Position numbers and translations under genes: made by a program. Of a stretch of 41,138 nucleotides of DNA, positions 8,776 to 40,502 are shown piece by piece; the first letter of the stretch is position 1; each line of letters opens with the position of its first letter. The stretch lies in IMG/VR virus record IMGVR_UViG_3300027881_000034, positions 1 to 41,138 of that record; one strand, written 5' to 3'. Origin of the DNA: a virus. The notes beneath the pieces are model-generated. The model was not told the origin of the DNA. It searched no databases and worked only from the letters and a program-made list of their open reading frames with translations.

Positions 8776-8932
8776 GGTCCTCTCCCTTCTGCTCTCCCTG
8801 CTGTCGTATTATTGCATCGGTGAGATACTGAATATGGCCAAGCAAGCTTTTGACCACAGTACTGTCCGACCACTCGTCCTCTATTTTAGCCAATTCCTCT
8901 GAGGATAAGGCCTCGGATTGGATCATTGCCAT
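8765..8932 (-). CDS. Small acidic helical protein (55 aa)
   Basis: The ATG overlaps the QueC stop codon as TAATG and has GGAGGAG seven bases upstream, one of the best Shine-Dalgarno sites in the window. The product starts MAMIQSEALSSEELAKIEDE, is acidic and helical, and ends with a polar tail (IIRQQGEQKGEDRGS). It forms a pair with the following coiled-coil gene. Function unknown. Confidence 0.65.
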   Translation of the reverse strand: MAMIQSEALSSEELAKIEDEWSDSTVVKSLLGHIQYLTDAIIRQQGEQKGEDRGS

Positions 8933-9717
8933 TATACCACTCCTCCTACAGCTTGTGTGTTAACTCGGTTCCATGGCAGGTCTACTGCCGCGCCATGCAT
9001 TTGTTTTTGATATTGACCATAGTACGAAACCTTTTTCGGATCTACAGCATACTGGGTGGTATCACAACCTTCCCCCAATACCATTTCGAAGGCCACATTG
9101 CGCTCGATGCACTTGTAGCACATGCCACAATGTCGTGTTGGCAGACTGTCCATACAGTTTGACGTCAGCAATGCAGCATCAGGCCCAATGCTCCCGACAA
9201 GCAGGTTGACGCGGTCGGACTTATACCTGGACTCCCCAAAGTCGGCCAATGTCATTAGCCTATAACTCAACCCGTACTCATACAGCAAGTAGGCCGCCAG
9301 GTACCGAGCGTCAGCGTCATGTGCGCCAACGTGATCCTTAACAGCCCATGTATCGGCGCCGATGTACTCTCCCATGCCGAGGTAATAGCCGTCATTCGCT
9401 ATCACATGCTTGGCCATCATAAAGTCCAGGATGTTCTTGTTGCGACGTTTGGCCTCTACTCCATCAGCTGCAAAGTTCTCCAGGAATGCCCCGTCATATT
9501 CCATTACGTCAAACCACTGTTCGGGATACTGCATTTCAAACCTCTCCGATAAGGCATCCCTGGCCTTCTTCTCCCGCTGTCGATAACCCAAGGGCCCGAA
9601 GAGCAGTGTGACAGGATAAACAAACCACCCTGCCTCTAACAGGCAGCCGATGACGCCTGTACTGTCGATGCCACCACTCCACGTGACGTAGCATGTCTTA
9701 TTATTCGGATTGCTCAT
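8932..9717 (-). CDS. queC: QueC-like 7-cyano-7-deazaguanine (preQ0) synthase
   Basis: QueC turns 7-carboxy-7-deazaguanine into preQ0 using ATP and ammonia. The PP-loop SGGIDST is at residues 14-20. C188, C197, C200 and C203 have the C-x8-C-x2-C-x2-C spacing of the QueC zinc site (...HCGMCYKC...). The 261-residue length is slightly longer than bacterial QueC. The ATG at 9717 overlaps the upstream stop (ATGA) with GGAG six bases before. It is the last step of the phage's preQ0 pathway, with FolE, QueD and QueE encoded 16-24 kb away on the same strand. No amidotransferase domain is attached, so a Gat-QueC is not indicated. Confidence 0.85.
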   Translation of the reverse strand: MSNPNNKTCYVTWSGGIDSTGVIGCLLEAGWFVYPVTLLFGPLGYRQREKKARDALSERFEMQYPEQWFDVMEYDGAFLENFAADGVEAKRRNKNILDFMMAKHVIANDGYYLGMGEYIGADTWAVKDHVGAHDADARYLAAYLLYEYGLSYRLMTLADFGESRYKSDRVNLLVGSIGPDAALLTSNCMDSLPTRHCGMCYKCIERNVAFEMVLGEGCDTTQYAVDPKKVSYYGQYQKQMHGAAVDLPWNRVNTQAVGGVV

Positions 9718-10667
9718 ATTATTCTCCAAAGATATTCCCAAAGTTTGGTTCCCTGCTTACGTTGTTCTTCAAACTCATTATAGCTCAGGCCGCCTAGTAA
9801 TTCGTTTTTGACCTCGTCTACAACATCTGGCCTGGATTGGTATGCGATAAGAACTGTATTCTCCTCCCGCAGAAGCTCAATAGTCCTCCTCATGCCCTCA
9901 TAGCACTCGTCCAAGGTGACACTGTACTCGGCAGGCATTGGCATATCTTCTTGCTTCAGTACTGACATCAGCTTTTGTGCATAGAAGCCATAGACCTTGT
10001 CATTGCCTATGTGCTTTCTACCTGCTTCTGGCTGTGCAGGCCACGCTGGATCTAAGTAACAAATGAAACCCTTTAATGAGGCCAGGTCCTCATCAATGTT
10101 CAAATAGTCCTTTGTTGTAATACGTGTTGAGCATCCTTTGCCAATCCGCATATTTAGGCGGGCGGCCTTCTTTATTACCAACATCCTAAAATCATCAGCG
10201 GACCAGTGCTTAGTCGTGCCATATCTAAAGTCCGACATGGCCCCGTTGGATAATACGGCCGCAATTGACACAAGCATCAGAGGACTATCCTGATTGGCCG
10301 CGCACATTGCATCAATCGTACAGGCTGTCCTCCGTCGTATTGCCGAGGTGGTAACATTATCTGCCGTCCATCCTCTTTTGTATCCTGCATGCACGCGATC
10401 CAGTATTTCTTCGCTGGCTAACGGCTTGGCATTATTTCCCAACAGGGCCTTAGCGATCAAACGTGGATAGGGACTGGCGTCATTGGCTATGAAAGTACGG
10501 CATCCAAGCTCGTACATGAATACACTACAAATACCACAACCGAATGTTAAATCCAAATATTGATTGCGTTTAGGATCCCCAGCAGGCAAGGCCGCTGAGA
10601 ACATATTCATATGGGCCCACTTGTTGCCTATGTACGGGATACCTAATGCCTTTGTTGGATAGGGCAT
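9714..10667 (-). CDS. D12-class (Dam-like) DNA methyltransferase with a DPAW motif
   Basis: The 317-residue product begins like D12-class N6-adenine methyltransferases: GIPYIGNKW (residues 9-17, AdoMet-binding region), YLDLTFGCGICSVFMYELG (motif I) and IANDASPYP. The catalytic motif IV is DPAW (206-209) in place of the usual DPPY; the aromatic residue is kept but one Pro is replaced by Ala. The ATG at 10667 overlaps the upstream stop as TAATG, with GGAGG five bases before. It lies next to queC, so a joint role in DNA protection is plausible. It could methylate adenine, or have changed substrate; the sequence cannot decide. Confidence 0.7.
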   Translation of the reverse strand: MPYPTKALGIPYIGNKWAHMNMFSAALPAGDPKRNQYLDLTFGCGICSVFMYELGCRTFIANDASPYPRLIAKALLGNNAKPLASEEILDRVHAGYKRGWTADNVTTSAIRRRTACTIDAMCAANQDSPLMLVSIAAVLSNGAMSDFRYGTTKHWSADDFRMLVIKKAARLNMRIGKGCSTRITTKDYLNIDEDLASLKGFICYLDPAWPAQPEAGRKHIGNDKVYGFYAQKLMSVLKQEDMPMPAEYSVTLDECYEGMRRTIELLREENTVLIAYQSRPDVVDEVKNELLGGLSYNEFEEQRKQGTKLWEYLWRII

Positions 10668-12346: not shown

Positions 12347-14184
12347 TAACTCTCCCATACACTACTCCTTCCGTCGGCGGCCTTGCTTACAACGGCCGTA
12401 GAAGTGAAGTCACCATAGTCCAACGTGTGGTGGTCCACTAGCCATATACGCTTACCCATTTCGAGGGCCCTCAATCGCAGCGCCTCAAGCAGGCTGTCTA
12501 TCCCCTGAGGGCTCAAATGCTGGGTGGGCTCGTCATATACCTCTAATCCGAGATCTAGCCCTGTACGGGCTGACACAAGCGACATGAACCCCATTGAGCC
12601 CGCTATCTTCAACCGTTGCTTCTCGCCACCGCTCCATGCTGCAAACGGCACCTGTTTCCTGCTGTAAGGACTTTTGACTAGCACGTTGAACCCGGACATA
12701 GATCGGCCTGCCTTGCTTACACGCTCCACCGCATACTTTATCTGCCACTCGCTGCTAAATCCTAGCTCGCCCAACGCCTTATTTGTTTCGATCTCCAACT
12801 GCTCTAAGGCCTCGTGTATCAAATACAAGCGAACGTCTTTGAACCCTTTAATCCAGTACTCGGCGAGGTCTTTCTTCCCCTCTAATTTGGCCTTGCCTCT
12901 CTTACGAGTATCCAACCGTTTTAACAGGGCCTTCTCTTGTTCTAATTTGTCTGCCAACATAGACGCATAGGGATTGGTTTTGGCATATATTAACTTAACC
13001 TTTTCCCTAAGCACTTTTAAGGCCGATTTAACATTGGCACAGTCCTCCTGCAGAACTTCATATTCCCCTTCAATCTTGCGTTGGCGGCGCACCACCTTCC
13101 GATAATCATAGACCAGGATATTCAGTTCTTTGTCGAGGCCTTTAATCTGCTTGTCCAGCTTCCTTAAAGTTGAGCTCCTGGCACCATTGTCATACTGAAG
13201 TGTATGGATGGTCTCTCGTAATCCTGCTATTTGTTTCTTTGCCACCGCAGCCGATATTTTCTGGCCGCATGCCAAACACTTTTGACGCTTGTGCTTTTGT
13301 AGATGTATTATTCGACCTTCCAATTCCGTTGCCTTACTGTTGGCCACAAGCCACTCGGTCTTTGGCTGCATCTTATCGTTCTTTGTCGTTGTGAGCTTAT
13401 TTTTGACCGAGTCAATATTATCATTGAGTGCCTGTTGTTTGTCCGCTAGTGTTTTCCTAAATCGCTTGGCCTTGGCCAGGCGATTAACCATCGGTTTGTA
13501 GTTTTCCTCCATGTCCTGTAACTGCATCTGGAGGGTGGTCATTTCATTGTATCGCTCGGATTTAAAGTTCTCCTTCTTTTCCTTCAATGTAACAATATCC
13601 AGGCCATCTAGTTGTCCTTCCACCCGGCTTATGCCGATCTCCTTATGACTGATATCGGCTGCCATACTACCAGCAAGAACTTTGGCCTTGTCACTGTATT
13701 CCATCCACTCATCTAGCTGCAAGAGCGACGTAAATATTGCCAGCTTTCGTACGGCCGACAAATCGAAGAACATTGGCTCCCCTTGTGAGATCAATACGGT
13801 GGTAATGAACGTGTCAAAGTTAATCCCTATCTTATCCTCTAACACGGCCTGCTCTACAACCTCACCATCTAACGTAAGCTTATTTGGCTGCCAGCTACGC
13901 TCCACGACACTGCGGCCGAACCACAGCTTGCCGTAATAGCCCTTCTTACTGGATTGCCACGACTTCAAGTCGCCGGCACGTAGGCCGTCAGCAGTTTTGC
14001 CGAACAGTATCCAGCACAGTATTGACCATACTGTCGATTTACCTACCCCGTTGGATCCTAACGCGGGATCCTGCTCGTTGTCGCCTCCCTGCAGGAAATA
14101 CAGACCATCGACGGCACCAAAACGAAACGTGGTCTTATCGGCGAATGCCCGGATGCCTTCAAATTCTATCTTGCGGAGTCTCAA
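12346..14184 (-). CDS. Rad50/SbcC-like (T4 gp46-type) recombination ATPase
   Basis: It partners the Mre11-like nuclease to process DNA ends in recombination-dependent replication. The N-terminal Walker A is GSNGVGKST (43-51). Long coiled coils flank a zinc hook CLAC (C303, C306). The C-terminal ABC signature is WSGGEKQRLKIA and the Walker B is LEVYDEPTQHLS. Its 612 residues match phage gp46-like proteins. It starts with TTG overlapping the Mre11 stop as TTGA, with AAAGG eight bases upstream, so the two subunits are probably made together by coupled translation. Confidence 0.9.
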   Translation of the reverse strand: MRLRKIEFEGIRAFADKTTFRFGAVDGLYFLQGGDNEQDPALGSNGVGKSTVWSILCWILFGKTADGLRAGDLKSWQSSKKGYYGKLWFGRSVVERSWQPNKLTLDGEVVEQAVLEDKIGINFDTFITTVLISQGEPMFFDLSAVRKLAIFTSLLQLDEWMEYSDKAKVLAGSMAADISHKEIGISRVEGQLDGLDIVTLKEKKENFKSERYNEMTTLQMQLQDMEENYKPMVNRLAKAKRFRKTLADKQQALNDNIDSVKNKLTTTKNDKMQPKTEWLVANSKATELEGRIIHLQKHKRQKCLACGQKISAAVAKKQIAGLRETIHTLQYDNGARSSTLRKLDKQIKGLDKELNILVYDYRKVVRRQRKIEGEYEVLQEDCANVKSALKVLREKVKLIYAKTNPYASMLADKLEQEKALLKRLDTRKRGKAKLEGKKDLAEYWIKGFKDVRLYLIHEALEQLEIETNKALGELGFSSEWQIKYAVERVSKAGRSMSGFNVLVKSPYSRKQVPFAAWSGGEKQRLKIAGSMGFMSLVSARTGLDLGLEVYDEPTQHLSPQGIDSLLEALRLRALEMGKRIWLVDHHTLDYGDFTSTAVVSKAADGRSSVWES

Positions 14185-22838: not shown

Positions 22839-23915
22839 CTATCTTACGGCCTGTGTTGCCAGCAAGTGCATATAGGCTCCCTTGGAAAAGATAATGGCCT
22901 GCTTGCCAAAGTACACATGAGTAGAACCCTGTATAGCCTTAACAGCGAGTTCGGTGTCTACCAAAAACTTATCCCTCCCCCATTCGTGTGCAAACTTAGC
23001 GCCCGATTTTAATTTTCCAAGCGGGCTAGTGGCCTCAACCGTTACAGTTTTCAAATCGAGTGTCACTGTAACTTGCTTGGACAGATCCCCGGCCAGAATA
23101 AGCAGAGCTCTTTGGAAGCCATCAGCGAGGCCTGGAGCGATCTCCTGTCTTTTTCTTTTGTATTCGGTTGGCACAAAGGTATCAATTACTTTCTCAAAGT
23201 CCAACGGATCCTTGTTGTTTACAAGCTTACCATATATCTTGCACTCATTGCCGAAAGCAACAAGCACAAAATCATCGGCCATAGAAAACGTTATACCTTT
23301 CTCGCCGTAAACATCCCGCGCCTTCAACAAGGCCTTGCAGAGGGCTGTGGATAGTATTTTGTTATCGAAGCCTTCGCCCCAATCCTTCATGCTGTAAGTA
23401 CTTATGGCCTTGTTGTTTGTACTGTACATCCGCAGCTTATCATCTCTGTGGCCCAATGTTATTCCCATCTGCGCTGGCGTTTGGTCACCTACTGAGGACA
23501 GGCACAACTCAATGCCGTCAAAAAATCTGCGGGCCCGTGCCTCCGATAGTTTATACGTGCTCAAACGTTTTAAATTCGGCCACTTGAAAAAGAAGTCTTC
23601 CTCCTCCATGTATGGCAGCCTGGCTCGCACACCTGTTCGGACCTTGCCAGATTTGAAATACACTTTTTGGTCAGTGAATCCAATCTCGACTTCTTTCGAT
23701 TCAACGCTATTCAAAAGGCTCAACAATATATTGGCCTGGAGCGCACAGACAAAGTTGGTTGAGAAGGCGACCTGGATCCCTATAAAATCATTGTAGGCCG
23801 TTACCGACTTTCCCTGGAAACAAAAGTGAGCAAGTATTGGAATAAACTCACGCTGGTCTACAGCAAGCTTGGCCACGTCCAGTGCCTGCAACATCTTTTC
23901 GCGGTCGAATATCAT
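22839..23915 (-). CDS. DNA polymerase sliding clamp (beta-clamp-like)
   Basis: The 358-residue product has the three-repeat layout of a DnaN-like clamp: repeated hydrophobic strand pairs such as QANILLSLLNSVESKEVEI and FGNECKIYGKL, and ends with ...AYMHLLATQAVR. Size and neighbours (polymerase one base downstream of its stop, clamp loader after that) fit strongly. Sequence identity with bacterial DnaN looks low. Its ATG overlaps the DpdA stop (ATGA). Confidence 0.78.
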   Translation of the reverse strand: MIFDREKMLQALDVAKLAVDQREFIPILAHFCFQGKSVTAYNDFIGIQVAFSTNFVCALQANILLSLLNSVESKEVEIGFTDQKVYFKSGKVRTGVRARLPYMEEEDFFFKWPNLKRLSTYKLSEARARRFFDGIELCLSSVGDQTPAQMGITLGHRDDKLRMYSTNNKAISTYSMKDWGEGFDNKILSTALCKALLKARDVYGEKGITFSMADDFVLVAFGNECKIYGKLVNNKDPLDFEKVIDTFVPTEYKRKRQEIAPGLADGFQRALLILAGDLSKQVTVTLDLKTVTVEATSPLGKLKSGAKFAHEWGRDKFLVDTELAVKAIQGSTHVYFGKQAIIFSKGAYMHLLATQAVR

Positions 23916-24934
23916 TTTAGTTTTCTCCTCTTCGACGGTTTCATTGCTTCAAATAATATGTTGGTCTCTTTGGGGTAGAAGTAGGATCCCAAATACCTCA
24001 CCGGCTCGCCGGGAGGCAGCGGCCTGGCTGCCCAAGTCATCTCACGTTTAACCACGCCGATAGACATGCCGCACCCGGGGTGGCCCGCAATGTAAATATT
24101 GGCACCCTCTTCATAATCCCACTTGTCCTTGTAGTACTTCTTCAATGCTTGGCCTAGCAAGAATGTGTGGCCAGCATTAACAACGTCTCTGCCAAAGTAA
24201 CCTGTACTCACGTCCTCTATTGTAAATTGGAACATCTCGGCCAGGTACTTTTCCATATACATCTTCGACAGTTCCGATTGCTTGTCAATATGTACAGGCG
24301 CATGGCGCGACCTCTCTGTAAACCTCCACGAGATAGGCTTGCGGAGCCAATCATAGTCGCCGTTCTTCTTTAGCCGAGGGAACCGTGCCCACCCGTTCCT
24401 GGATAAGCTTGTCCAAGTGCTACTGTCGGAACTGTACCAGGGATACCTTTTCATCAACTGCACAGACGTCATTGCGAAGCCGTGCATCTTGTTACGAGGC
24501 CTACCGTGCTTGTCGCACACACGTTTGAAAATCTCATCGCCGAACGTTATGTAGGATTGTACTGAGGTCCGCTGACCCAGGCCGCCAACCCCTACGTATT
24601 CATAATTCTCAAGGTAGTGCTCGAGGTAGGACCAGTCCTCACCATAGTGGAATACTGGCATCGGCTCCAGCCCGCAATCTTCCATGTAATGCAGTACCTC
24701 CTGGGAGGCAGGTGCATTGTAGATAATGTCCATCGTCACATACATATCTAACTTGGCCGCATGCTTAAGACAGTATTCGATATAGGCATCCAGGTATTCT
24801 TTGAACTCGGGTGTCTTGTAATATTTGTAATCGGCCAGGTCCTTGTCGCTTTCCATGCCTTTGCGGCTGGGTGCGAACTTCATGTTGTACAGCGAGAAGG
24901 CACCACTATCCAAGGCCACCTTTAAGCGTTTCAT
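23912..24934 (-). CDS. dpdA: DpdA-like 7-deazaguanine DNA transglycosylase (TGT fold)
   Basis: DpdA enzymes exchange guanine in DNA for preQ0. The 340-residue product has the TGT-like hallmarks: LDSGAFS (D9), YVTMDIIYN (D69), YVGVGGLG (113-120), MHGFAMTS (His151) and a SSDSSTWTS segment (D170), the position of the nucleophile Asp in TGT and a pattern typical of phage DpdA. The ATG overlaps the folE stop as TAATG. Its product supply is encoded by folE, queD, queE and queC in the same phage, which makes the call much firmer. Target sequence specificity cannot be read from the protein. Confidence 0.85.
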   Translation of the reverse strand: MKRLKVALDSGAFSLYNMKFAPSRKGMESDKDLADYKYYKTPEFKEYLDAYIEYCLKHAAKLDMYVTMDIIYNAPASQEVLHYMEDCGLEPMPVFHYGEDWSYLEHYLENYEYVGVGGLGQRTSVQSYITFGDEIFKRVCDKHGRPRNKMHGFAMTSVQLMKRYPWYSSDSSTWTSLSRNGWARFPRLKKNGDYDWLRKPISWRFTERSRHAPVHIDKQSELSKMYMEKYLAEMFQFTIEDVSTGYFGRDVVNAGHTFLLGQALKKYYKDKWDYEEGANIYIAGHPGCGMSIGVVKREMTWAARPLPPGEPVRYLGSYFYPKETNILFEAMKPSKRRKLK

Positions 24935-25503
24935 TAAATCGCCCCTATCAATGAGAACAGTTCGGTCTTAACTTGCGGCTCCCTGAATAGGCCTGCAATG
25001 CTCGACGTCACCATCTCACTGTCCTGCTTGTTGACTCCCCGACACGACATGCAAGTGTGCCTAGCAACCAGCACACACGCGGCACCTCGCGGCTTTAAAT
25101 GTTCCTCCAACGTTGCTACTACATTCTGGCCGATACGTTCCTGGATCGTTAGCCGGCGCGAGCAGGCGTCCAGTATCCTCGCCAGTTTGCTTATCCCAAT
25201 CACCCGCTCGTCCGGCAGGTAAGCGACGTGGCCATAGCCCATAAACGGCAGCATGTGATGTTCGCAGAAGGAAAAGAATTCGATGTTACGCAAGACAACT
25301 ATTTGGTCATAGCCATCGTGGTCGTCAAATACTGTTATAAGTTTGGCCAGGTCCATATTATAGCCGGCGAACAACTCGTCCCAAGCTTTGACTACCCTGG
25401 CAGGCGTATCCTTCAACCCTGGCCGATCGGGATCGTCACCAATACACTTTAGCAATTGACGGACGGTAAATTCTTTAAAATCAATTTTCTCATCAGGCAT
25501 CAT
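24934..25503 (-). CDS. folE: GTP cyclohydrolase I
   Basis: FolE converts GTP to dihydroneopterin triphosphate, the first step to preQ0. The 189-residue product has DDPDRPGLKDTPARVVKAW, FCEHHMLPFMGYGHVAYLP and CMSCRGVN, containing the zinc Cys/His ligands and the substrate-binding residues. Two ATGs in a row follow GGAG at 6 and 9 bases; I chose the first. A terminator lies directly upstream, so folE and dpdA may start a new unit, or readthrough may set their level. Confidence 0.93.
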   Translation of the reverse strand: MMPDEKIDFKEFTVRQLLKCIGDDPDRPGLKDTPARVVKAWDELFAGYNMDLAKLITVFDDHDGYDQIVVLRNIEFFSFCEHHMLPFMGYGHVAYLPDERVIGISKLARILDACSRRLTIQERIGQNVVATLEEHLKPRGAACVLVARHTCMSCRGVNKQDSEMVTSSIAGLFREPQVKTELFSLIGAI

Positions 25504-25513
25504 GCGTCGCTCC

Positions 25514-25546
25514 AAAAAAAATACCCGAGACCACTAGGGCCTCGGG
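25514..25546 (-). terminator. Rho-independent terminator upstream of folE
   Basis: On the minus strand, CCCGAGGCC pairs with GGTCTCGGG (9 bp, one G-T) with a 5-base loop, followed by TATTTTTTTT. It lies after the acidic-protein gene and only a few bases before the folE Shine-Dalgarno, so it may act as an attenuator for folE-dpdA and the replication genes. Confidence 0.8.
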
Positions 25547-26551: not shown

Positions 26552-27094
26552 CTACCTGGCTTGTTTTGACAGGTTGCTTCCACTTGCATATACATTACCT
26601 TTGGACCACTGACCGTAAGAATCGGCCGTCTCCCAAACTTTGACACATAGGATATCTATCCATGTGCCTTCTGCGTCGTCCCGACTTGCGAGGCCTGGCT
26701 CCTCACCGCACTCCATCTCCGTGAAAAACTTTTGTAGATGGTAGGCAGCAAACTCAGCGAACACCTCTGCCGTCGGGTTATTATTAAGGATCAAAACTTT
26801 TTGAACCTTGCCGTCTGTCGCTCGCGGCACAAGATCGTCCCTGGCCAAGTTGTCGTCCTGCCACAGCACAAGCGCATGATCGAACGGCTCATAAATGACC
26901 TTTCTCATGGCCTCCTTTAACTCAACAAAATCTACCGATATGGCATTGAACTCCGATATACCACCGCCAGCCAGGCCTGCTGTCACCTCCCAGCGATAGC
27001 TGTGGCCGTGTATGTGAGCACACTTGCCTGCATAATTACAAAGGCGGTGCGCCGTTTCCGTGGTCATACATTTTGTCACTACTATTTGGCTCAT
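26552..27094 (-). CDS. queD: QueD, 6-carboxy-5,6,7,8-tetrahydropterin synthase
   Basis: QueD is the second preQ0 step. The zinc ligands H16, H29 and H31 and catalytic C25 are in place (CAHIHGHSYRW, a C-x3-H-G-H motif). Later motifs are VDFVELKEAM, FDHALVL, NNNPTAEVFAEF and KVWETADSYG. At 180 residues it is longer than bacterial QueD, with an insert around residues 130-150. The ATG overlaps the sigma-factor-like stop (ATGA). After it, a 60-base gap leads to the acidic-protein gene. Confidence 0.93.
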   Translation of the reverse strand: MSQIVVTKCMTTETAHRLCNYAGKCAHIHGHSYRWEVTAGLAGGGISEFNAISVDFVELKEAMRKVIYEPFDHALVLWQDDNLARDDLVPRATDGKVQKVLILNNNPTAEVFAEFAAYHLQKFFTEMECGEEPGLASRDDAEGTWIDILCVKVWETADSYGQWSKGNVYASGSNLSKQAR

Positions 27095-32060: not shown

Positions 32061-32896
32061 TACGTGGCCAGTCTCATAAATGCATCATGGAATTCGTCCC
32101 TAAATCTTATTCCATAACGTTCGCACTCCTCCTCCATCTTCTTCGCATTGTAGTTGATTGGCACTACATGCGGCAGGTGCGGTTGCAATGCCAAGGGCAG
32201 GGGAAACGTTGCCAGGGCAGTATTCACTTCTATGTCCTTGCGCCGCATCCTCCACCTCACCCACACCTCCTTGTCTGTCACGCCTTGTGCCACCATCCGG
32301 TAAGCTGTCTTGTCGCCCACGCCGTGTATCCCCGGCACACCATTGTGACTGCCCTTCAAAGCCACACACCTCGGCCAGAGCTGCGGTGTTATTTTGGGCC
32401 AGTCCTTATTGAAATCATTGAGCCCATACAGGCCGCCTGTCTTTGCTAAGAATATGCGGCCGTCCAATAGCTGATACAAGTCCGAGTCATTGGACATTAT
32501 GAAAATACTTTTGTAGCTATTACTGGACCGACAAAACTCGCCGATCAAGTCGTCGGCCTCGTGCCCTGGGGCCTTAGCCAATGGAATTTTAAACCGTGCG
32601 AGCAATTCGTTTATTTGTTTGCGACTAATGGCCAGTTGCTTTACGGAATCCTCCTCCAGTACTTGTTTCCTGTCGGCCTTATAGTCCGGGTAAAACTTGG
32701 ACCGGATATAGGGCTTGCTATCAAAACACACGGCCAACCTGTCACACTTGTAACGGTTAACCGTACTGCACACCATGTCTATAAAACCGTACACGCCGCC
32801 CGTAAACTTTCCCTTGTGCGATAGGCCTTGGTGTGCAAACACGGAACGGTATAGAAGGTTATTAAAATCTACCAGCAGCAAGTTTTTCTTTTTCAT
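32060..32896 (-). CDS. 5'-3' exonuclease (FEN/RNase H-like flap nuclease)
   Basis: The PIN-like nuclease motifs are present: LLVDFNNLLYRSVF, VCFDSKPYIRSKFYPDYK, GHEADDLIGEF, SNDSDLYQLL and the helix-hairpin-helix SHNGVPGIHGVGDKTAYR. The 278-residue size fits T4 RNase H/T5 exonuclease types that remove RNA primers. It overlaps queE upstream (ATGA) and dnaB-like downstream (TAATG), tying the modification and replication genes in one unit. Confidence 0.93.
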   Translation of the reverse strand: MKKKNLLLVDFNNLLYRSVFAHQGLSHKGKFTGGVYGFIDMVCSTVNRYKCDRLAVCFDSKPYIRSKFYPDYKADRKQVLEEDSVKQLAISRKQINELLARFKIPLAKAPGHEADDLIGEFCRSSNSYKSIFIMSNDSDLYQLLDGRIFLAKTGGLYGLNDFNKDWPKITPQLWPRCVALKGSHNGVPGIHGVGDKTAYRMVAQGVTDKEVWVRWRMRRKDIEVNTALATFPLPLALQPHLPHVVPINYNAKKMEEECERYGIRFRDEFHDAFMRLAT

Positions 32897-33708
32897 GCGC
32901 CTTCCCTTTCCCTTATCCTTCGAAGGTACTCCTCCCGGCCGAGCGTTCGCTTTGTAAAGTCCACCCCGTAGTTTTCTTCCGCCCTAACGTCGATCGGCCA
33001 GATATACTTGTGCATCTGCAAATTGATCCCCACACCAATGTTAGGCATGCCTGCAACAATCATCATCCTAAATAATCGCACGGGCGTCATCATGCCATGC
33101 GCCGGAGAAAAATACATGCGGGCACCAAAAGTCCGTTTGTCATATAAAAGGCGAGCAACCTTGCAGGCCTCATTAAAATCTTCGGTAGTGTCAATGACAA
33201 ACTTCACAACATCACCATGTTGTAGATGACTAAAATGTTGGAGGTCCATGTTGCCTTTAAATTTCGAGGATGGCAATTTCCAATCTACAACGAATGTCAG
33301 CATGCCGAAAGGCGGGCGGAATAAGAGCATGTCTTCGAGGCCGTTCCTAAACTGTATCGTGTCCTGTGTGCCGGCCGTCTCTACTGTGATAAGATAGTCC
33401 TCTTCGATCAGCAGTTTTATAAACAGGTACAGGCCAACCCAGTCCTGCTCTAGCGGTTCCCCCCCTGTCAGTGTCACCTTATGTATGCCGCCGCCTACAT
33501 GCTTCACAACCTCTACCAGTTCGGGAGGTAGGAAGCGGGCTCCGCCTTTAGCACTCCAAGAATATTTTGTGTCGCACCAGTGACAGCCTACAGTACAGCC
33601 AGCAGTACGAACAAATACTGACCAATTTCCTTGGTGCCATAAATTGGCCTCGCCGTCAATGGTTTTATATACGGATAGGATTCCAAGTTCGGTTTTAACA
33701 TTTATCAT
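32893..33708 (-). CDS. queE: QueE, 7-carboxy-7-deazaguanine synthase (radical SAM)
   Basis: QueE makes 7-carboxy-7-deazaguanine from the QueD product. The radical-SAM cluster motif is GCTVGCHWCDTKYSW (C38, C42, C45), followed by KVTLTGGEPLEQ. SVYKTIDGEAN is the conserved start. The Shine-Dalgarno GTGAGGG and three-base-spaced TAAA belong to the same junction type as the accessory genes. At 271 residues it is slightly longer than bacterial QueE. It is the first gene of the replication block after a 178-base gap. Confidence 0.93.
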   Translation of the reverse strand: MINVKTELGILSVYKTIDGEANLWHQGNWSVFVRTAGCTVGCHWCDTKYSWSAKGGARFLPPELVEVVKHVGGGIHKVTLTGGEPLEQDWVGLYLFIKLLIEEDYLITVETAGTQDTIQFRNGLEDMLLFRPPFGMLTFVVDWKLPSSKFKGNMDLQHFSHLQHGDVVKFVIDTTEDFNEACKVARLLYDKRTFGARMYFSPAHGMMTPVRLFRMMIVAGMPNIGVGINLQMHKYIWPIDVRAEENYGVDFTKRTLGREEYLRRIREREGA

Positions 33709-33886
33709 TTTACCCTCACTTTAAAATTGGTCTAGTCTCTCCCAGTGTCACGCATAGTTCGCTTAGGGATAGCCAGGCCCGCGTTCGCCTGTTCCTCGTG
33801 AGGGCGATCACTTGGAATTCTTTGGCCAGTTAATTTTATCAAACACGCGGCGGCCACCCGCGCTCACTCCTAGGAGCTAGTGTGTG
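33709..33886 (-). promoter_or_regulatory. 178-base gap between ParB-like gene and queE
   Basis: No gene is visible. On the minus strand, next to the ParB-like stop, there is a CGCGG/CCGCG hairpin (about 33849-33865) without a clear U-tract and a 10-bp palindrome CTCCTAGGAG (33867-33876). Further on lies AGTGATCGC, also present in the two structured repeats, a CAGGC/GCCTG hairpin, and AAAGTGAGGG as the queE Shine-Dalgarno. A promoter, terminator or ParB-binding site is plausible but no box is convincing. Confidence 0.4.
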
Positions 33887-37397: not shown

Positions 37398-37597
37398 TGT
37401 GATGCCCTCACTTTGGCTTCTCTGATTATTCCTCTAGCATGCCGCTCTACAATAGCGACCGCCGTCGGGCTTGTGTTGCCTGTCAATTGCTTCGCATATT
37501 CCTTGGAAAATTGAAGCACCTCGTCAGGGCCGAACCCATCCTCGGCCATCAGCTCGAGAACAAGTGCCCTAGTAATCTGCTTGGTGTTTACTGTCAT
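37394..37597 (-). CDS. Small hypothetical protein (67 aa)
   Basis: AGGAG is six bases before the ATG. Its last codons (V-R-A-S-Q-stop) are encoded by the junction element used to start the next gene, giving an ATGA overlap. The product is helical (ALVLELMAEDGFGPDEVLQF). Function unknown. Confidence 0.6.
   Translation of the reverse strand: MTVNTKQITRALVLELMAEDGFGPDEVLQFSKEYAKQLTGNTSPTAVAIVERHARGIIREAKVRASQ
37395..37412 (-). promoter_or_regulatory. Junction element, exact copy, translated at its end
   Basis: AGTGAGGGCATCACAATG. Here the upstream gene reads through the element as V-R-A-S-Q-stop, ending by ATGA overlap, so the same bases serve as protein code, Shine-Dalgarno and start. Confidence 0.85.
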
Positions 37598-38105: not shown

Positions 38106-38342
38106 CTATCGCATCGGGATGCTAAAGATATCGGCCAGAGCCGTACAGTTATCAAAACCGACGCGGATGCCATGCTTCCTCATGTTCTCAAACATATCGC
38201 GGTCGACAACATACCATGTCTCTCGCTGATGTTTGTCCATGCCTTTCGGATCCCGCGCCACAATTACTGGCTGACCTGATCCACGTTTTGTCCAACGAGC
38301 TTCCAGCCCGGCCTCTCTAAACGTTCCTACTCGGTATTTCAT
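38106..38342 (-). CDS. Small hypothetical protein (78 aa)
   Basis: The start follows a variant junction element (AGTGAGGGCATCATTATG). The product is basic (YRVGTFREAGLEARWTKRG) with a later helix (RDMFENMRKHGIRVGFD). It lies just downstream of one copy of the two-hairpin repeat. Function unknown. Confidence 0.6.
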   Translation of the reverse strand: MKYRVGTFREAGLEARWTKRGSGQPVIVARDPKGMDKHQRETWYVVDRDMFENMRKHGIRVGFDNCTALADIFSIPMR

Positions 38343-38357
38343 AATGATGCCCTCACT
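38340..38357 (-). promoter_or_regulatory. Junction element, variant AGTGAGGGCATCATTATG
   Basis: Two bases differ from the five exact copies elsewhere in this block (AC to TT in the CA part). The Shine-Dalgarno GAGGG and ATG spacing are kept. It lies a few bases after a two-hairpin repeat. Confidence 0.7.
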
Positions 38358-38361
38358 ATAC

Positions 38362-38418
38362 GTTATGGGATGATTCCCAACAAGCCCGCTCGTTAGAACG
38401 GGCTTGGTGCGATCACTC
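38362..38418 (-). repeat. Structured two-hairpin repeat, copy 1
   Basis: Between two genes and overlapping the upstream stop. On the minus strand: GAGTGATCGCACC, an 8-bp stem (38381-38388 with 38399-38406) with a 10-base loop, then a short GGGAATCATCCC inverted repeat. The flanks are identical to copy 2 at 40201-40259. Two stem pairs differ between the copies and both are compensated, which supports a real RNA (or DNA) structure. Confidence 0.8.
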
Positions 38419-38892
38419 GGCCTGTCTCTTCCTCAGGAAACCTGCCTCTATCTCAACCGCTTCCCTCTCGTCTGCACATTCTTTGATAAACTGGGCCCAC
38501 CGGAGTAGGTCAGTCCCAAGGCTGATTGCTTCGTCCGGCTCCAAAAATGTCTGCAAGTCTTCGATATAGCAGACATCCCTGCCGTCCGAAAGCCTACCCG
38601 CTTTGGTTGTGGCATAGTCTTTTGTCAGCCACGTGTAATCAGTTGCGGCAGGGTCGGTCGGGTTGGTTTTGCTTGTTGCTGTCATAATAGGCTCCTCAAT
38701 TTGCGAGCAAAGATACTCGTCAACTATCCTGCAGGACCTCTCCGAAGAGATGCTGTGCTCTGCATGCTCTTTAGCGAGTGCCGCAATCGACTTCATCGAC
38801 AGCTGGCCATCCCTCTCTATAACGTCGCCAACATGCGGCGCTATGTCCTCGGCTACTTTCTTCAGTGCCGCTTCGCTTAATCTAAATCCCAT
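38413..38892 (-). CDS. Unknown helical protein (159 aa), maybe with an internal start
   Basis: The first ATG follows a junction-like leader (TGTGAGGGTAATATCATG). The product is largely helical (EAALKKVAEDIAPHVGDVIE) and acidic near the end. Inside, GAGGAGCCTATTATG precedes M70 (MTATSKTNPTDPAATDY), so a shorter second product (38413-38685) may also be made. No family recognised. Its end overlaps the two-hairpin repeat. Confidence 0.6.
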   Translation of the reverse strand: MGFRLSEAALKKVAEDIAPHVGDVIERDGQLSMKSIAALAKEHAEHSISSERSCRIVDEYLCSQIEEPIMTATSKTNPTDPAATDYTWLTKDYATTKAGRLSDGRDVCYIEDLQTFLEPDEAISLGTDLLRWAQFIKECADEREAVEIEAGFLRKRQAE

Positions 38893-38919: not shown

Positions 38920-39855
38920 CTATGCGGCCTCCTGATACTCTTCCTGTTCCTTCTTCCGCTTCTCAGCGAGTTCCGGAATAAGAAATTCCACAGCGAATGC
39001 ACTAAGGCGGGAGGCCTTAAAGATTAAGCTGTGGTCGTTTTTCAAAGCTTTGATCCAGGATTGGACATAACTTGCGTGGTTCGGCATCTCAGAACTGACA
39101 CCGTGTATGTTACACAGCATCGCGGCGCCAATCTCTGCCACCAGTTCCTCAAATGCATAGTCCTCAGAACCAAACGAGGTGAAGCCCGTAATGCCTACTC
39201 GGGCTAGTCGATCCTTGTGTCCGGTCCAATGCACAAGCTCATGCAGACCTGTTGCTGCGAAGCCCTCTGCCGATTTAAACCGCTCCGGTTTCGGCACTTC
39301 AATGTGGTCTGTAGTCGGAGCGTAGAACGCGCGGCCACCATTAAACTTGACAGTGGCTCCGGCGTCCTTCATAAACGACAACGTATTGTCGATGATAAGC
39401 TCATCGGCAGGCACAATGTCGTCCTCTTCCATCGGCTGTTCACGCTTCGGCAGCTTCGCGTCTTCCGTCTGCTCGATGTTAAACACGGGGAAGGTCCGCA
39501 GCATGAAAATCTTGCGCTTCTTTTCCTCGTTACCTGGGTCGTTGTCGTCCTTGATAAAGATCGGCTTGGTAAAAACTACCATGGTCGACTTCTCACCCTT
39601 CCGCACGTGGCCGCCAGCTTTCTTACACTGTTTAAACGTCAACCACTGTGCTGTGCTGTATCCCTTAGCATCCTGCACGACCCACAAGTACGGCACGTTG
39701 ATGCCCCGATACTCATGTCCGGTAATGCAGTTATGCGGCATAGCGGATCCAGCTGTGCCAGTCCACGGTCGCTGCCATGGGTTCGTGCCTGCTTCAAGCG
39801 CCGCCACGATTGTGTCGGTTACAAGCTTCCTAATTTTATCTGCTGTCATTTTCAT
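38920..39855 (-). CDS. ardC: ArdC-like antirestriction protein (ssDNA-binding plus zinc metalloprotease-like domain)
   Basis: The start at 39855 follows an exact junction element; an apparent upstream extension is not coding by this logic. The N-terminal domain (AALEAGTNPWQRPWTG, RGINVPYLWV, WLTFKQCKKAGG, VRKGEKSTMVVF) is typical of ArdC/TraC ssDNA-binding domains. The C-terminal domain has GLHELVHWTGH (HELVH at 205-209) and FEELVAEIGAAML, the zinc-ligand pattern of its metallopeptidase-like part. Known ArdC proteins protect incoming DNA from host restriction. An early position is consistent with this. Confidence 0.88.
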   Translation of the reverse strand: MKMTADKIRKLVTDTIVAALEAGTNPWQRPWTGTAGSAMPHNCITGHEYRGINVPYLWVVQDAKGYSTAQWLTFKQCKKAGGHVRKGEKSTMVVFTKPIFIKDDNDPGNEEKKRKIFMLRTFPVFNIEQTEDAKLPKREQPMEEDDIVPADELIIDNTLSFMKDAGATVKFNGGRAFYAPTTDHIEVPKPERFKSAEGFAATGLHELVHWTGHKDRLARVGITGFTSFGSEDYAFEELVAEIGAAMLCNIHGVSSEMPNHASYVQSWIKALKNDHSLIFKASRLSAFAVEFLIPELAEKRKKEQEEYQEAA

Positions 39856-39870
39856 TGTGATGCCCTCACT
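39853..39870 (-). promoter_or_regulatory. Junction element, exact copy before ardC-like gene
   Basis: AGTGAGGGCATCACAATG. The TGA is the stop of the upstream gene, GAGGG the Shine-Dalgarno, and ATG the start of the ardC-like gene, so one 18-bp block ends one gene and starts the next. Confidence 0.85.
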
Positions 39871-40183
39871 TTGCCGAACGGTTAAGAATCCGATGTTCAA
39901 ATGAGCTGGATTCGCTATGATTAAGATGCCATGCATCATCGGCCGCATGACTCGCCATGCCTTGCAAGGTCTGTAACGAGTGGCCAATGCACTCAAGCTC
40001 TGTACAAACTTCACGTTGCATATTTAGCTCGGCCGTTGTTGCACCTTGCCACTTGTCCTTGAGATTGTCGCTGTACCTCTCATCCAAATCTGAGACAGTC
40101 TCATCAAGCCGAGTATGCATTTGATACAAGGCATGCTGTAAGGCCTGTATGTCGGCCACGATCTTTGCTGTTACAAGTTTCAT
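39866..40183 (-). CDS. Helical coiled-coil protein (105 aa)
   Basis: The start follows an exact junction element. The product is helical (IVADIQALQHALYQMHTRLD, then SDLDERYSDNLKDKWQG) with a His/Ser-rich C-terminal part. Its TGA stop lies inside the next junction element. Function unknown. Confidence 0.65.
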   Translation of the reverse strand: MKLVTAKIVADIQALQHALYQMHTRLDETVSDLDERYSDNLKDKWQGATTAELNMQREVCTELECIGHSLQTLQGMASHAADDAWHLNHSESSSFEHRILNRSAK

Positions 40184-40198
40184 TGTGATGCCCTCACT
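40181..40198 (-). promoter_or_regulatory. Junction element, exact copy
   Basis: AGTGAGGGCATCACAATG, lying two bases after the second two-hairpin repeat. Here the upstream stop is not inside the element. Confidence 0.85.
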
Positions 40199-40200
40199 TT

Positions 40201-40259
40201 GTTATGGGATGATTCCCAACAAGCACACTGCCGAAACAATGTGCTTGGTGCGATCACTC
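40201..40259 (-). repeat. Structured two-hairpin repeat, copy 2
   Basis: The 8-bp stem is 40220-40227 with 40240-40247, with a 12-base loop. Compared with copy 1, two base pairs of the stem are changed on both sides, while the flanks (GTTATGGGATGATTCCCAA and TTGGTGCGATCACTC on the plus strand) are identical. It overlaps the end of the upstream gene. No U-tract follows, so a simple terminator is unlikely. Confidence 0.8.
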
Positions 40260-40502
40260 CGAAGTCACTACGTTAACCACTCCGAGTGCTACGCCGCCCG
40301 ACAGACCGAGTGCATCCACAATAAATTCGCGGACGTTTTCTTCGGCCTCCTCAACCGAATCCACAAAGCCGTATCGAATGTTATCCGAATCCAGCAATTC
40401 GAACGGCTTGCCAGGCGTTCGAAATAATTGCCGGACCTCGTCATTGGGATCGGTGCGATCCTGTATCACATACGTGACGCTTGCTGTAATTACTTTCTTC
40501 AT
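40254..40502 (-). CDS. Small hypothetical protein (82 aa)
   Basis: The ATG at 40502 follows a variant junction element (AGTGAGGGAGATCGACATG). The product begins MKKVITASVTYVIQDRTDPN, a strand pair, then an acidic helix (VDSVEEAEENVREFIVDALG). It ends at the two-hairpin repeat. Function unknown. Confidence 0.65.
   Translation of the reverse strand: MKKVITASVTYVIQDRTDPNDEVRQLFRTPGKPFELLDSDNIRYGFVDSVEEAEENVREFIVDALGLSGGVALGVVNVVTSE

Follow-up and report, generated by a model that had tools for sequence, protein, structure and literature searches.

Results and Discussion

Two intergenic junctions of the DNA analysed here, which comes from an uncultured bacterial virus (the window, 41,138 nucleotides), carry an RNA element that recurs in a syntenic contig, covaries in its paired bases, folds preferentially on the sense strand of the genes and exactly fills the long gaps of its operon. 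The element is tentatively read as a post-transcriptional processing and insulation site between the cistrons of a polycistronic early mRNA, a role that may well prove to be another one.

Two copies of an extended hairpin at long gene junctions

The genes at 29-41 kb are read on the minus strand, and the two copies are placed among them as follows:

38106..38342, minus strand, gene that follows copy 1, encoding 78 aa and without a Pfam match
38343..38357, minus strand, ribosome-binding (RBS) box (AGTGAGGGCATCATT) adjoining copy 1, followed by ATG
38362..38419, minus strand, element copy 1 (region 1, apical hairpin, region 2, AUAAC), from gene A to the next gene, 72.6 bits
38382..38405, minus strand, apical stem-loop of copy 1, AAGCCCGUUC-UAAC-GAGCGGGCUU
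38413..38892, minus strand, gene A, ending in GAG TGA, which forms the 5' flank of copy 1
39866..40183, minus strand, gene that follows copy 2, encoding 105 aa and without a Pfam match
40184..40198, minus strand, RBS box (AGTGAGGGCATCACA) adjoining copy 2, followed by ATG
40201..40260, minus strand, element copy 2, from gene B to the next gene, 81.3 bits
40221..40246, minus strand, apical stem-loop of copy 2, AAGCACAUUGU-UUCG-GCAGUGUGCUU
40254..40502, minus strand, gene B (probable ATG start at 40500-40502), ending in GAG TGA, which forms the 5' flank of copy 2

A preliminary description of this DNA had reported hairpins at these two sites with identical flanks, different loops and an 8-bp stem, CAAGC(C/A)C(G/A), in which two pairs differ and both changes are compensated (C-G to A-T and G-C to A-T), and all of this is confirmed. 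The repeat is therefore real, but it had been read on the plus strand, whereas the gene-sense strand of both copies is the minus strand and the relevant RNA is the reverse complement. In this sense the layout is (GAG UGA stop)UCGCACC-AAGC(stem-loop)GCUU-GUUGGGAAUCAUCCCAUAAC-box-AUG, and each copy begins at the stop codon with which the upstream gene ends and extends to the next gene's ribosome-binding box. The fold is an imperfect extended hairpin, with a variable apical stem (AAGC..GCUU) set on the near-invariant flanks GGAGUGAUCGCACC / GUUGGGAAUCAUCCCAUAAC. The apical stem has 9-11 bp in the folds of the window copies, against the 8 bp first noted, and below it the best fold of both copies has an internal loop with a G.G mismatch, a 3' bulge and an outer stem GUGAU/AUCAU, giving 19 modelled pairs plus mismatches per element. 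The folding energies are -32.8 and -32.1 kcal/mol for the sense strand and -25.9 and -24.3 kcal/mol for the antisense strand, with z-scores of -4.6 and -4.1 versus -2.6 and -2.2. These energies, together with the G-U pairs, point to the sense-strand RNA as the functional form.

In the operon at 36.4-41.1 kb no gap exceeds about 30 nt except the two that hold the elements, each of 70 nt by gene coordinates, so that long gap and element coincide at these junctions. The automatic gap list showed copy 1 only, because an over-long reading frame had been taken for ArdC. This protein, which Pfam matches identify as an ArdC-type anti-restriction protein carrying a metallopeptidase domain, is encoded at 38920-39855 in the same operon.

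A strong hairpin after a stop codon is what a transcription terminator or attenuator without a U-tract would also provide. The U-tract is absent from both copies, where the stem is followed by GUUGGGAAUC, and a scan for promoters and terminators called neither at either copy, although host promoters may differ from the sigma-70-like consensus that was scanned. A strong terminator would moreover silence the following genes, given that no promoter was found between hairpin and next gene. The earlier judgement that this is hardly a plain terminator is thus supported, and termination or attenuation is very unlikely.

Further copies and covariation

The IMG/VR collection was scanned by exact pattern for the 3' strand of the element, which yielded one true relative, contig L001 (L020 when reversed). 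This contig is syntenic with the window, and its DnaB-like helicase and its ArdC are both 72% identical to those of the window. The exact matches in L002 and L005-L016 were set aside as chance, since they come without hairpin or boundaries. All the close relatives are uncultured metagenome contigs, and the full copies number four. Of the two in L001, one lies 3' of the gene B homolog, where the element thus follows as in the window, and the other lies 3' of a homolog of the first part of gene A, a part that is homologous in L018 as well. The genes downstream of the L001 copies differ from those downstream of the window copies. In the L001 gene A copy GGAGTGA is present although the upstream gene does not stop there, which means that the conservation of GGAGTGA belongs to the element. 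The element is absent at the gene A junction of L018, the closest relative by helicase (82%).

A covariance model, R1, was built from the four copies (two of the window and two of L001) and scores all of them, in-sample, at 72-81 bits, with the L001 pair at about 75 bits. Because the window copies were in the model, the distance between their 72.6-81.3 bits and the 9.1 bits of the next unrelated match in the window, a chance match, shows contrast and not independent discovery; their own reverse strands score 26 bits. Out of sample, R1 finds a hairpin in the L021 leader (25.5 bits, E 3e-4), and a similar hairpin is present in L020. The best of nine pattern matches in bacterial genomes reached 17.5 bits (E 0.5), with no credible R1 match among them. 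The annotated phage collection held no relative of the region by DNA and none for gene A, a DnaB search of bacterial genomes gave no match, and no Rfam family matches the element at gathering score, with a permissive search giving chance matches only.

In the alignment of the four copies 96.1% of the cells are paired and four pairs are changed on both sides, a count that three of 500 shuffles reach. The covariation score was matched by none of 500 shuffles, and slid controls were 35-49% paired. Covariation from four related sequences is good but not overwhelming evidence for an RNA structure. Nonetheless, the selected structure that had been proposed at the outset is supported, given that the search of viral contigs, which the preliminary description had itself named as the test, found further copies with preserved pairing. 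The outer strands are near-invariant across the four copies, the 3' strand especially, and the apical loops are UAAC, UUCG, GCAA and one loop of 7 nt.

The presence of the element in the window and L001, its absence at the L018 gene A junction and the hairpin-only relatives in the L001 and L021 leaders would all be expected of a mobile or repetitive (REP-like) sequence with no function in cis. Such a sequence would hardly keep a fixed orientation, always from gene end to RBS box, or compensatory changes, or its position after gene B although the downstream genes differ, and this is the least probable of the explanations considered. An operator for a phage RNA-binding protein, repressing or activating translation of the genes after the gap, fits better: near-invariant flanks, a conserved internal loop (G.G mismatch and bulge) and a variable apical stem resemble a recognition motif. 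The downstream genes differ between the window and L001, however, the apical loops vary among copies and no candidate protein was identified, which leaves such an operator rather unlikely.

The leaders hold a structure of their own. A conserved non-coding leader of about 200 nt (L020:35-240 and L038:2748-2960) has at its end a long hairpin, with about 20 bp in L020, that is related to the apical stem of the element; a stem GCAGGGC/GCCCUGC covaries with GCAGGCC/GGCCUGC. The window ends before that place.

A shared ribosome-binding box and its reverse complement before queE

The preliminary description had seen a junction element after each hairpin; it is present, but what had been missed is that it is a shared RBS box, AGTGAGGGCATCA(C/T)-N-ATG, also written AGTGAGGGCATCAC-N-ATG, which lies downstream of the hairpin and belongs to the next gene. 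The core of this box, GTGAGGGC, occurs 8 times in the window versus 1.5 expected by chance (both strands). Seven occurrences are on the minus strand at 37.4-41.0 kb, in the early operon, all just before starts, and the eighth is reversed, at 33798-33805 in the queE leader. Those apart from the two copies are:

37404..37411, minus strand, RBS box core GTGAGGGC without hairpin
37859, 39862, 40745 and 40953 (start positions), minus strand, other box cores without hairpin
33798..33813, minus strand, anti-box AAGTGATCGCCCTCAC, reverse complement of the RBS box, in the queE leader

A short piece shared with the hairpins, AGTGATCGC, had also been noticed before queE. It is there, at 33804-33812 on the minus strand and within a block conserved in seven phages, but its complementarity to the RBS box had been overlooked; as a lone 9-mer it could be a chance occurrence. 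The reversed box, within AATTCCAAGTGATCGCCCTCAC, is kept in the window, L001, L018, L021 and L023 and has small changes in L019 and L039. An RBS for a gene on the opposite strand was rejected as its explanation, given that the frame that follows TTG soon closes and shows no conservation.

The stretch of the queE leader pairs with the box starts at a mean of -23.5 kcal/mol, against -12.0 +/- 1.8 for shuffles (lowest of 200: -18.0). Stretches that pair as well number 22 of the 6,324 tested, the eight best listed being the literal opposite strand of boxes, and the separation of box from non-box starts is not clean, with some non-box starts reaching -28.8 kcal/mol. By eye, the anti-box can pair in cis with the queE RBS (window, L018, L019) or, in L001 and similarly in L021 and L023, with a GAGGGC..CACUU piece of the queE leader. 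A purely trans antisense role was downgraded for this reason, and pairing in cis within the leader could explain the conservation of the anti-box. Since the nearest box could serve as a partner in cis both in the window and in L040, a phage with an unrelated box, a trans role is unproven. In L040, GATCTCCTCCTCCTATG (12687-12704), the reverse complement of its own box plus 3 bases, lies just before the first hammerhead ribozyme.

The queE leader as a whole (33709-33886) is structured, has two structural versions among relatives and has no Rfam match; its conserved block might act as a riboswitch-like lid for queE, or as an antisense RNA. Genes at 8932-9741, 23912-25515, 26552-27094 and 32893-33708 resemble a 7-deazaguanine DNA-modification set, with candidates that are QueC-like, DpdA-like, FolE-like and QueD-like, besides QueE; the domain check covered QueE alone in this set, for radical SAM domains.

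Structured gaps in other relatives

Elements that differ in sequence from that of the window and are similar in layout were assigned, by layout and inspection and with simple ORF calling for the gaps, in L021 and L043. The former has two structured gaps (86 and 78 nt), in which the element takes the form GAGGCCG..CGGCCUC followed by AUGCUU..AAGCAU. The latter, with a helicase 37% identical, has eight, with a variable apical stem followed in most by GGUGCA-N4-UGCACC. R1 gives no strong match over the full length in either, with 11.4 bits on the L021 gene B gap and at best 25.5 bits (E 0.004) on L043. Five L043 copies covary among themselves, with 4 two-sided pairs and 92.6% paired, and a purine-purine mismatch below the apical stem recurs (G.G in the window, L001 and L043, A.A in L021). 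Both observations lend support to the extended form of the hairpin. In every version the strand 3' of the apical stem has two possible partners, one upstream, which gives the extended hairpin, and one downstream, which gives a second hairpin. Relative to shuffles, region 2 pairs copy by copy with region 1 at p 0.003-0.28 and with region 3 at p <0.003-0.09 (uncorrected); the gain in stability being modest, bistability between the two predicted forms is suggestive only.

Alternative pairing of these strands would also suit a translational coupling switch, in which region 1 pairs either with region 2, leaving the RBS free, or with the RBS box in a closed three-way junction, and a ribosome that completes the upstream gene would occupy region 1 and so open the next start. 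Region 1 contains the UGA stop in the two window copies, as it does in the L001 and L021 copies that follow gene B. In window copy 2 a fold that pairs GUGAUcGC with the GCAUCAC of the box reaches -29.1 kcal/mol, the best fold being at -32.1, and for L021 copy 2 the three-way junction is the fold of lowest energy. The best folds of the window copies nonetheless keep the box unpaired with region 1, and in the L001 gene A copy GAGTGA is not a stop codon and box pairing is weak. Such a switch is unlikely, if clearly worth considering.

Hammerhead ribozymes and the proposed role

The record of L040 (helicase 38% identical) has 11 boxes ATAGGAGGAGAT(C/T)ATG, many preceded by type II hammerheads, and 7 matches to this family (RF02276), 5 of them above the gathering score, lie before ATAGGAGGAGAT-N-ATG boxes. 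The L042 record has 3 such matches and that of the window none. The elements of the window, like these hammerheads, are structured RNAs between cistrons in the direction of the transcript, made of two hairpins flanked by 5' and 3' strands; unlike them, they have no CUGANGA or GAAA core, and a hammerhead identity was rejected. The L040 genes concerned are downstream of DnaB and the window genes upstream of it, and the likeness is one of position relative to starts, not of synteny or homology. A further extended hairpin, TTGAC(A/G)(T/C)TC..GAGTGCCAA, is common to three gaps of L042 (19315-20180), two of which run straight into ATG.

Clustered phage hammerheads have been proposed to cut long polycistronic transcripts into gene-length mRNAs, with cleavage reported for several (PMC3088659). 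It is mainly this proposal and the hammerheads in the L040 gaps and the L042 record that lead us to prefer processing over other roles. The element would act after transcription, at long cistron junctions of the early mRNA, where the extended hairpin would be cut by host RNase III, by another nuclease or possibly by itself. The cut would leave the upstream message ending in a hairpin and the next message starting some tens of bases upstream of its RBS box. Cutting and its agent are suggested mainly by the distant relatives (38% helicase identity) with hammerheads before RBS boxes. The near-invariant outer strands exceed the needs of a generic RNase III substrate, which argues against processing and suggests sequence recognition or recent copying.

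Among the functions first suggested, a processing site and a protein-binding element are the leading pair of candidates, and a small RNA found no direct support. An undescribed self-cleaving ribozyme (or ribosome-gated switch) in the gaps, combined with pairing of an anti-box RNA with the RBS boxes, would be an improbable extension. Covariation, hammerheads and reverse-complement words together lead to a testable proposal, namely that a set of early genes may be controlled post-transcriptionally in these phages, through cuts between cistrons and through base pairing with the RBS box that the genes share.

Comparison with known systems

In the early genes of phage T7 the RNase III sites at junctions are long imperfect hairpins with internal loops, and the window elements are alike in having an imperfect duplex of about 20 bp at a cistron junction.

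With respect to the cluster K mycobacteriophages, the box behaves like their Start-Associated Sequences (SAS) and the hairpin like the "extended SAS" (ESAS), though neither is a member by sequence, the SAS consensus being GGGATAGGAGCCC versus AGTGAGGGCATCAC here. In both cases a conserved box, confined to non-structural genes, occupies the RBS position of many of them in one orientation, and an imperfect inverted repeat precedes a subset of the boxes, two of them here. The base changes of the window element keep RNA pairing, whereas those of ESAS do not support pairing according to their authors (PMC3203893), and hairpin copies are far fewer here. Similar motifs are found in Microbacterium cluster EF (PMC7302621).

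A DNA-level operator or promoter, as proposed for the cluster K ESAS, would account for the position of the hairpin just upstream of a SAS-like box, which is that of ESAS relative to SAS (PMC3203893), and the ESAS of Adephagia carry SigA-like promoters (PMC11373665). No sigma-70-like site corresponding to these hexamers is found at the window copies, with the caveat on host promoters given above, two-sided changes keep the base pairs, and G-U pairs occur on the sense strand only; action at the DNA level is therefore quite improbable.

The K1 phages have a single reversed SAS, comparable to the reversed box here. In Anaya (cluster K; L122:29871-29883, Anaya 59870) it stands alone in a gap of 385 nt that separates genes 96 and 97 and has no gene annotated in it; in the 31 kb of Pixie that were examined, no reversed SAS is present within two mismatches. 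To the question of what SAS and ESAS do, asked since 2011, the repeat upstream of the box contributes RNA covariation. A reverse-complement word matching the box is present in two phages whose boxes are unrelated, and also in one cluster K phage.
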